The position numbers and the translations under genes are program-made. Of a stretch of 33,709 bases of DNA, positions 30,661 to 32,565 are shown piece after piece. The DNA lies in assembly GCA_015523125.1 (NCBI GenBank), contig WAKX01000017.1:1-33709 (forward strand), read 5' to 3'. The DNA comes from DHVE2 group archaeon. Its GTDB lineage: Archaea; Thermoplasmatota; Thermoplasmata; Thermoplasmatales; Aciduliprofundaceae. The notes beneath the pieces were generated by a model, which was given only the letters and a program-made list of their open reading frames with translations, searched no databases and was not told where the DNA came from. How positions within the stretch are numbered: the first letter of the stretch is position 1; each line of letters opens with the position of its first letter.

Positions 30661-31719
30661 TCACAGAAACCCATATATTTCGTTCCCGTATTCGTCCACC
30701 ATCTTCACCCGATAGCCGGAGTCCAATGCAATCATTGTGGATCCGCAGATGTATATCTTCCCGTAGAGATCAACGTTTGTGGCTTCCACGCTCAACGGTA
30801 TGCTTCCCTTGTAGGTTCCATGGTCGTATACGAGAATGGAACCGTAGTTCGTCAACACCAATAGATAATCTCCCTGAGCATTGCTGTCGGCGGAGATTTT
30901 CACCCCGTAGTTCAATCGAGAATCCGCTATTGTCCCTTCGTAATTTCCGTAATAGTCGAAGAGTTTCACTTCTTCTCCGTCCAGCACATACACCTCCTTT
31001 CCTACGGCCACATCCTTACCATCAGTCAGGTTTACCTTTTTTATCACCTCCCCTGTGTTGTTCATAACTATGAAATTTGAGGAATTCACAGCGTAAATAT
31101 ATGGGCCGCGGGAACCGAGGGAGGTGAGGTTGGTGACCGATAAAAATCTCACCAGTTGTCCATTCTCATCTAATTCCAGGATGCCCGTCCCGTTCAAAAC
31201 ATACACCAGAGAGGAAGAGGACACGTCCCGCGGCCCGTCGATGCTCCTCTCCCACGCAAGCGTGCCGTTGTAATAATACGCAAATAGCGCAGTTCTGTTA
31301 ATCGAGTATATCTTATCGCTTTCGGAACTCGCAATTCCCTCAATGGGAATGGAGAATTGGACATCGTGCACGGAGCCGAGAGAGTAGGAAGAATTAATGA
31401 AGAACTCCATAACTTCTCCTGGGTACCAGTAGTTTTCAGAGGAGAAATTAACGGGTGTGCCGTTCAAAAGAATCGTCATCTTCTCCGTCTCAAGAGTTTT
31501 AGGTCCTTCATTTAGAGCGATTATTTCCACGTTTCCATCGTTGTAAACCACCCTTTTTATCGAAATTAAATTTTTCTCGTTTTCAATTATGTCAATCTTG
31601 TTGTTGAGCCCGTTCTGGAAATTATCATAAGCGTAAAGTAAGCTATTGAGCAAAACGCCGAATAGCAGGAGCGACGCGGTGAATATTATTCCGTAAGTTG
31701 CAGTAACGCTAAGACCCAT
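30661..31719 (-). CDS. flaF: FlaF (ArlF)-like protein fused to an extracellular beta-propeller
   Basis: The protein has 352 residues, more than twice the usual FlaF length. The first 130 are FlaF-like: an N-terminal helix (TATYGIIFTASLLLFGVLLNSLL) and a beta-sandwich (KRVVYNDGNVEIIALNEGPKTLE). Residues about 155-352 form short repeats, each a pair of strands with a turn such as GTGILELDENGQL, SNFIVMNNTGEVI, EEVKLFDYYGNYEG, YGSILVYDHGTYKG and STMIALDSGYRVK, typical of PQQ/WD-like propeller blades. About nine N-x-S/T sequons fit a glycosylated outside domain. It starts 1 nt after flaB stops. A frameshift or assembly fusion is unlikely since the frame is unbroken and flaG follows normally. Function of the added domain is unknown; it might contact the S-layer. 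Confidence 0.8.
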   Translation of the reverse strand: MGLSVTATYGIIFTASLLLFGVLLNSLLYAYDNFQNGLNNKIDIIENEKNLISIKRVVYNDGNVEIIALNEGPKTLETEKMTILLNGTPVNFSSENYWYPGEVMEFFINSSYSLGSVHDVQFSIPIEGIASSESDKIYSINRTALFAYYYNGTLAWERSIDGPRDVSSSSLVYVLNGTGILELDENGQLVRFLSVTNLTSLGSRGPYIYAVNSSNFIVMNNTGEVIKKVNLTDGKDVAVGKEVYVLDGEEVKLFDYYGNYEGTIADSRLNYGVKISADSNAQGDYLLVLTNYGSILVYDHGTYKGSIPLSVEATNVDLYGKIYICGSTMIALDSGYRVKMVDEYGNEIYGFL

Positions 31720-31720
31720 T

Positions 31721-32356
31721 TCACATCAACTCCACATACCTTGTTACATATGGGGATGGGGTCATGACGCTCTCGTCCGTGGGCACTCCATGCTTTGGAA
31801 TTATCTTGACCGTTAGCTGTGTTTGAGGTTCCAAATTCAAACCTATCTTGGTGGCGTTGAAAAAGAGCTCCTCGATATCCCCCTGCGTTATCACCCAAGA
31901 ACCCTTTGGGTCCATATCCCTGACTTTCTGCGCTCCGAACTGCTCAGCATCCAAAGTGTCTGGATGCGCCCCCGCGTTGAACGATGCGCCCGGAGCATAG
32001 CTCAATGTAGCCACTGTGTATCCGTCGGTCACCTCGATTATTATTGAACTTATGTTTATTGGAGGACTTCCAGCGATCAGGGATATCTTTATCGTAATCC
32101 AGTCGATTTTGCTGTGATAAGGCGGATTGAGCCCCCAAGATGAGTTGTACCTGAACCCGCCCATCGAAATTACCTTAATTCCTGTGGAAACGTCCTGAAT
32201 GGCCTGATTTGATGTCTCCTGCGCCTGCTGCTGCAATTGATAGGAGACGTTGATGAGCAGGGTTGCGGTGACGGCTGCCACAATCACCATTGCGATGAAT
32301 ATTATGAGCGAGCCGATTCCGAATTCTCCCTTCTCATCTCTAATTATTTTCTTCAT
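31721..32356 (-). CDS. flaB: Archaellin (FlaB)
   Basis: The protein has 211 residues from ATG 32356, with GAGGTGA 8 nt ahead; an alternative GTG at 32368 follows a perfect GGAGGTGAT by 9 nt. The class III signal peptide MKKIIRDEKG is cleaved before EFGIGSLIIFIAMVIVAAV by FlaK/PibD-type peptidase, leaving the hydrophobic helix that packs the filament core. The rest is the surface beta domain, with few sequons (NVS, NSS, NIS, NAT). Only one archaellin gene is in this operon. The frame stays open to 32455, but those 33 codons lie in a strongly folded leader and are probably untranslated. Confidence 0.93.
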   Translation of the reverse strand: MKKIIRDEKGEFGIGSLIIFIAMVIVAAVTATLLINVSYQLQQQAQETSNQAIQDVSTGIKVISMGGFRYNSSWGLNPPYHSKIDWITIKISLIAGSPPINISSIIIEVTDGYTVATLSYAPGASFNAGAHPDTLDAEQFGAQKVRDMDPKGSWVITQGDIEELFFNATKIGLNLEPQTQLTVKIIPKHGVPTDESVMTPSPYVTRYVELM

Positions 32357-32481
32357 TTTTTCGGTCACCTCTTGGACATCACCTCCCATTTTGGAGATGA
32401 GGAGAGCACGAGGCTCTCCCCGAGAGAGACCCCGAGGTGATTTTTCTACCATCACCTGCGGGCATCCAGGGTCTCTCCCAA
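32357..32481 (-). promoter_or_regulatory. Structured 5' leader RNA of the archaellin operon
   Basis: On the minus strand GAGAGACCC (32477-32469) pairs perfectly with GGGTCTCTC (32432-32424). Nested inside, AGGTGAT (32457-32451) pairs with ATCACCT (32441-32435) around a 9-nt loop. A second hairpin, GGAGAGC/GCTCTCC with a 5-nt loop, fills 32419-32401. ATCACCTC is also complementary to both ribosome sites further down: GGAGGTGAT (32386-32378) and GAGGTGA (32371-32365). The 3' arm CTCTC can instead pair with GAGAG of the second hairpin. Mutually exclusive pairings around a Shine-Dalgarno sequence are how riboswitches and RNA thermometers work; function here is inferred. Confidence 0.6.
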
Positions 32482-32500
32482 TAACTCACAACATCAACGG

Positions 32501-32509
32501 AATTTAAAA
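32501..32509 (-). promoter_or_regulatory. Probable TATA element of the archaellin operon
   Basis: Minus-strand TTTTAAATT would place transcription start at about 32480, at the very base of the leader hairpin. A second candidate, AATTATAAAT at 32524-32533, would start the RNA about 20 nt earlier. Either gives an unusually long leader (125-145 nt) for this window. Confidence 0.45.
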
Positions 32510-32565
32510 AATTTTTTACTGAGATTTATAATTTGTAAACCAAAAGAAAAACTAAGATGTGATTT

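Follow-up and report, generated by a model that had tools for sequence, protein, structure and literature searches.

A Conserved Archaellin mRNA Leader in Aciduliprofundaceae Is Predicted to Act as a Trans-Responsive Switch by Pairing with the Leader of Another Archaellin Gene

Architecture of the flaB1 Leader

The window (the whole 33,709-nucleotide stretch of DNA that was analyzed, from a DHVE2 group archaeon) carries an archaellin operon on its minus strand. The first gene is flaB1, and those downstream of it encode, among others, a T2SSE ATPase, a KaiC-type ATPase, and another PF01917 protein. A 352-aa open reading frame without a Pfam match (30661–31719, minus strand) separates flaB1 from the second archaellin-like gene. 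On the plus strand, an archaeal SRP RNA is located at 2383–2695 (Rfam RF01857, 194.6 bits). The features of flaB1 and its upstream region are:

31721–32356, minus strand: flaB1, archaellin, first gene of the operon (Pfam PF01917, E 8.8e-27)
32365–32372, minus strand: SD2 (AGAGGTGA), proximal ribosome site of flaB1, first base 16 nt from the ATG
32378–32399, minus strand: P4, a variable spacer pairing with SD1 (GGAGGTGAT, 32386–32378), from a spacer-shuffle test of folding energy
32401–32419, minus strand: P3, a hairpin with a conserved stem and a variable loop
32422–32479, minus strand: leader domain 1, with P1 (32479–32469 with 32432–32422) and P2 (32457–32451 with 32441–32435), from sequence, fold, an alignment of 14 orthologues, and a consensus fold with G-U-preserving changes
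32430–32441, minus strand: 3' strand of P2/P1 (ATCACCTCGGGG), proposed anti-Shine-Dalgarno (anti-SD) that displacement would release; antisense to the ribosome site of flaB2 as well
32447–32472, minus strand: 5' strand proposed to pair in trans with the flaB3 leader, consisting of ACCCTG (32472–32467), an NA bulge (32466–32465), and TGCCCGCAGGTGATGGTA (32464–32447)
32458–32468, minus strand: bulge TGGATGCCCGC, proposed toehold, mostly predicted to be unpaired in the flaB1 monomer
32501–32513, minus strand: putative TATA-like promoter element of the archaellin operon (AAAATTTTTTAAA), conserved in orthologues

A reading made from the sequence alone had described nested stems in this leader, and all are present exactly where it placed them. 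A perfect 9-bp outer stem (GAGAGACCC, 32477–32469, with GGGTCTCTC, 32432–32424) encloses an inner stem formed by AGGTGAT (32457–32451) and ATCACCT (32441–32435), and a further 7-bp hairpin, GGAGAGC/GCTCTCC, spans 32419–32401. The same reading had noted that a segment of the inner stem is antisense to both ribosome-site sequences of flaB1, and this too is borne out: GGAGGTGAT (32386–32378) and GAGGTGA (32371–32365) precede the archaellin ATG (32356–32354), and the anti-SD lies at 32441–32434. An 11-nt bulge confined to the 5' side connects P1 with P2, and an alternative CCCG/CGGG pairing that extends P2 is 0–3 kcal/mol from the best fold. The folding energy of the leader is −57.2 kcal/mol, compared with −42.1 (sd 4.1) in 200 dinucleotide shuffles, none of which was as stable (z −3.7). 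Across orthologues, the spacer before SD1 varies in sequence while its complementarity to SD1 is kept; the summed folding energy of P4 is −113 kcal/mol versus −74 (sd 7.6) with shuffled spacers (0 of 2000 as low), where related sequences are not independent. In each of the 14 orthologues, 28–31 nt separate the TATA-like box (here at about 32513–32501) from the foot of the outer stem, and the location of the box suggests that the flaB1 transcript starts near 32480, where this stem begins.

Distribution and Conservation

A DNA search of 41 relatives recovered the leader in 14 of 18 genomes of Aciduliprofundaceae, where it is single copy and always upstream of flaB1. With one mismatch allowed, the pattern CCTGNATGCCCGCAGGTG has a single match in each of these 14 genomes, which include all 10 that are at least 90% complete. 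Among 84,980 species, the exact pattern was found in members labeled DHVE2 group, Aciduliprofundum, or, in two cases, only Thermoplasmata or Euryarchaeota archaeon, along with scattered bacterial matches at about the rate expected by chance according to our own estimate. When the 99 remaining genomes of the order in the search set were scanned with a covariance model of the leader, none gave a convincing match. Archaellins are present in 6 of 21 scanned relatives in the order outside the family, and the motif is absent from the archaellin upstream regions inspected in such relatives.

Comparison of the region upstream of flaB in relatives, which the sequence-only reading had proposed as a check, upholds the structure. 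The leader is retained by 14 of the family's 18 genomes, and substitutions in the P1/P2 helix across these orthologues mostly preserve G-U pairs, with one pair compensated. Only a single base varies within the bulge and the 5' arm of P2. The invariant core (CCTGNATGCCCGCAGGTG) contains the asymmetric bulge, and cis folding does not account for the bulge. A coding explanation for the conserved block (an upstream open reading frame, MPAG...) was rejected, as neither its frame nor its length is conserved and its third positions do not vary. Within the core, the A of the NA dinucleotide (window position 32465) is invariant in 14 genomes though unpaired in both the cis and trans structures.

A Complementary Leader at flaB3

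A search for CCCG(N)AGGTGAT uncovered a reverse-strand copy that adjoins another archaellin gene in nearly every genome. This third archaellin gene, flaB3, is at another locus than flaB1. In all 15 genomes that have the locus, its leader contains ATCACCTGCGGGCACAGGG followed by AGGAG and the start codon; in one genome, G006, the sequence instead reads (T)CTCACC.... The exact 17-base core, CACCTGCGGGCACAGGG, occurs once per genome in 15 genomes and is always in the flaB3 leader just before AGGAG. Its reverse complement is the flaB1 5' strand together with the bulge. The two bases NA are the only flaB1 bases left unpaired within the core, and their N corresponds to the variable base in the block. 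The flaB3 complement is predicted to be partly structured. The flaB3 leader (loci L184–L198) also has a conserved 5' hairpin, GTTCTCA...TGAGAAC, whose variation is partly compensated, and close to the promoter a AGATAACCGTGAGAAAA stretch is conserved. In one genome (G000:C2, L184), FlaB3 is 289 aa, compared with 211 for FlaB1 and 209 for FlaB2, apparently owing to an insertion of ~80 residues after the N-terminal part.

Evidence for Pairing in trans

Pairing in trans was assessed in the 13 genomes in which both the flaB1 and flaB3 leaders were recovered. In every one, the leaders can form an ungapped helix of 16–19 contiguous standard pairs, with additional pairing of CCCTG/CAGGG and, in several genomes, the P1 arm. 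The duplex has a predicted energy between −56 and −64 kcal/mol, whereas shuffled partners give about −22 (sd 4), and sliding the register leaves only 29–46% of positions paired.

The complementarity covaries with the cognate flaB3. Six variable positions at the loop end are partly or wholly outside the cis stem; across nine lineages, 52 of 54 pair with the cognate flaB3, in comparison to 38.1 (sd 2.8) of 54 when flaB3 partners are permuted (p≈2e-5). Counts of double-change cells (18 versus 5.6, sd 2.2, in shuffles) and the covariation score (0.262 versus 0.111, sd 0.021) were each unmatched in 500 shuffles. On a tree of FlaB1 and FlaB3 proteins with equal branch weights, 10 changes occurred on the same branch in both genes, whereas 1.7 are expected (0 of 200,000 randomizations). 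Eight of these preserve the pair and two (in G001 and the G011 group) break it near the end of the helix. The clearest single cases are G006, with a flaB1 loop of GAGAGTA and TACTCTC in flaB3, and G013, in which the cis partner in P2 has decayed and the trans partner is retained. One P1 position (A or G) tracks a flaB3 base (C or U) while its cis partner remains U. In 4 of 13 genomes (G000, G004, G009, and their like), some noncognate flaB3 leaders score slightly above the cognate.

Complementarity between the two transcripts is thus conserved and covarying, and sequence comparisons strongly support pairing of the flaB1 and flaB3 leaders. Based on the positions of the promoters, we infer that both segments are transcribed as leaders, and pairing is likewise presumed to occur in cells. 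Two other possibilities were set aside. The 23S rRNA (L152) shares an 11-mer, TGCCCGCAGGT, with the flaB1 toehold, but mimicry of rRNA does not account for covariation with flaB3, and we treat the match as a coincidence. Kissing loops formed via CCUG...CAGG hairpins have a predicted probability of 0–0.37 and were not relied on. The 16S rRNA was not found in genome G000.

Predicted Consequences for Ribosome Sites

Simulated cofolding of the two leaders is favorable (ΔΔG of −20 to −33 kcal/mol) and changes access to their ribosome sites. The unpaired probability of the flaB3 SD increases from 0.19–0.47 to 0.83–1.0 in 13 of 13 genomes, and that of flaB1 SD2 drops to 0.12–0.37 in 12 of 13; in G013, SD2 is nearly unchanged at 37 °C (0.33 to 0.30). 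Cofolding describes an equilibrium without concentration or kinetics and is extrapolated to 70 °C. Margins over shuffled controls are modest. In the monomer, the flaB3 SD is more closed than the mean of its shuffled controls in nine of nine cases, by small margins that are individually not significant, and shuffling the flaB1 3' arm abolishes just part of SD2 closure, with essentially no difference in G013. Computationally, the flaB1 bulge is mostly unpaired and the trans duplex replaces P1/P2, as would be required of a toehold.

We suggest that the flaB1 leader is probably a trans-responsive mRNA leader that pairs with the flaB3 leader, turning flaB1 off and flaB3 on. In free flaB1 mRNA, P1 and P2 would lock the anti-Shine-Dalgarno strand (ATCACCTC), leaving the proximal site SD2 largely open so that flaB1 is translated, and the asymmetric bulge would be an exposed toehold. 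The flaB3 leader carries, immediately before its ribosome site, the complement of the entire flaB1 5' strand together with the bulge. With the two mRNAs in the same cell, pairing is predicted to begin at the toehold and proceed by branch migration through P2 and then P1. The freed anti-SD of flaB1 could then fold onto SD2, and the ribosome site of flaB3 would be released from its own local structure. The reciprocal outcome is a prediction of the folding models, and the direction of the effect on translation is deduced from it.

Alternative Explanations

The sequence-only reading had proposed a translational switch controlled by a riboswitch, thermometer, or protein-bound element. As architecture, an anti-SD with a competing anti-anti-SD arm is well supported, but competition in cis alone is unlikely to drive a switch. 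Forcing the anti-SD onto either SD costs 9.9–24.4 kcal/mol at 37 °C and 5–13 at 70 °C in all 14 orthologues, a cost that also speaks against a simple thermometer. From 37 to 80 °C, the predicted accessibility of SD1 and SD2 changes gradually with no consistent switch. Rfam covariance models have no match in the leader, with best scores far below gathering, and in the window match only the SRP RNA. An invariant asymmetric bulge, an anti-SD and SD within one leader, and an SD1 held in a hairpin are what a metabolite riboswitch, thermometer, or protein-binding leader acting in cis might look like. However, the anti-SD state is 5–24 kcal/mol uphill, and a cis aptamer does not explain why the bulge and P2 loop match and covary with another gene, so that we regard such a leader as highly improbable. 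The trigger named in that reading is probably wrong: the bulge is complementary to the flaB3 leader, strand displacement by which makes the anti-SD state favorable, and the trigger is probably another mRNA rather than ligand or temperature.

In the main rival explanation, the shared sequence is an operator in the DNA, bound by an archaellin transcription factor and lying just downstream of the start sites, with opposite orientations at flaB1 and flaB3. Complementarity between RNAs from two loci amounts to identity at the level of DNA, and exact complementarity is what an operator would produce; both promoters also bear other conserved elements. Against this, the flaB1 core has two extra bases (NA), flaB1 forms a cis hairpin in which changes preserve G-U pairs in the transcribed strand, and the sites are at different distances from the presumed starts, with that of flaB3 abutting its ribosome site. 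In a fixed 24-pair register, transition-type departures fall in five G-U versus one A-C cells, a difference in the direction predicted for RNA that is not significant alone. An operator is an improbable explanation, if less so than a switch acting in cis. Somewhat less doubtful, yet still unlikely, is that the leaders pair in trans with another outcome, in which ribosomes are kept from entering flaB3 by the flaB1 leader, which might act as a processed small RNA, or the stability of the mRNAs is changed by the duplex. A steric block is possible, since only a few bases lie between the end of the duplex and the flaB3 AGGAG. There are also precedents: archaeal sRNA154 and sRNA41 mask ribosome sites and sRNA154 stabilizes targets (PMC5867862), and the Listeria hly–prsA2 mRNA pair works on stability (PMC8079631). 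In the cofolding models, in contrast, the flaB3 SD opens in each of the 13 genomes and SD2 of flaB1 becomes closed in 12 of them, a coherent reciprocal outcome that favors the trans-responsive leader.

Relation to Known Systems

A search of the open-access literature found no report of the leader element or of pairing between archaellin mRNAs. In Salmonella, flagellin is controlled by FljA, which acts on fliC mRNA. Sigma28-dependent, UTR-derived sRNAs function in flagella biosynthesis (PMC10578931). Like these systems, the flaB1 and flaB3 leaders would represent posttranscriptional control among genes for filament proteins or motility, but FljA is a protein repressor and the sigma28-dependent regulators are UTR-derived sRNAs, both are bacterial, and neither is known to involve leader–leader pairing. 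The closest parallel between protein-coding mRNAs is in Listeria, in which the 3' UTR of hly pairs with the 5' UTR of prsA2 (PMC8079631, citing Ignatov et al. 2020). There, as predicted here, mRNAs pair in trans through UTRs to coordinate related proteins; in Listeria, a 3' UTR pairs with a 5' UTR, stability is affected, and SD access is unchanged, whereas flaB1 and flaB3 are predicted to pair through two 5' leaders with a reciprocal change in SD access. Methanosarcina sRNA154 and sRNA41 are trans-acting RNAs that mask ribosome sites (PMC5867862) and likewise control translation by base pairing in archaea, but they are separate small RNAs, whereas in the archaellin case two mRNA leaders are the partners and strand displacement is predicted to open the target. 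In synthetic toehold switches and riboregulators, SD access is altered when a trigger RNA attaches to an exposed toehold and a stem is displaced (e.g., PMC9071393). The same steps are predicted here, with the differences that synthetic switches are engineered and the flaB1–flaB3 pair is natural and conserved. In addition, its trigger and its target are both mRNAs, with predicted responses of opposite sign.

If correct, an archaeon would possess a toehold-type switch that is both natural and conserved and that lets two protein-coding mRNAs affect each other through their 5' leaders, which would be an example of mRNA–mRNA regulation in archaea. The predicted opposite effects on two filament proteins would provide a further way of setting archaellin composition. 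Species-specific compensatory changes supply ready-made cognate and noncognate pairs of leaders with which the model is directly testable.

Other Archaellin Genes

A second cluster of archaellin- or pilin-like genes (L201, G000:C13:46800–51000) is without the leader motifs. Another archaellin gene, flaB2, is preceded by a leader with a short hairpin of its own and by a ribosome site of invariant sequence, CCCGAGGTGAT, to which the flaB1 3' strand is antisense. Around this SD, 11–14 pairs can form with the flaB1 3' strand in most genomes (permutation p 0.004 over eight lineages). Since the SD itself fixes most of the match, we consider it a lead only, largely explained by the conserved SD and clade structure. 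As a tentative and rather doubtful extension, displacement of the flaB1 3' strand by flaB3 RNA could link three mRNAs in a strand-displacement circuit, with leader pairing setting the relative output of the three archaellins. Upstream of the flaB2 promoter (L104–L117) there is also a strongly conserved element, about TGAGAATTAAAAATTTTAATCATTTTTATAGAAT, that is likely a transcription factor site.
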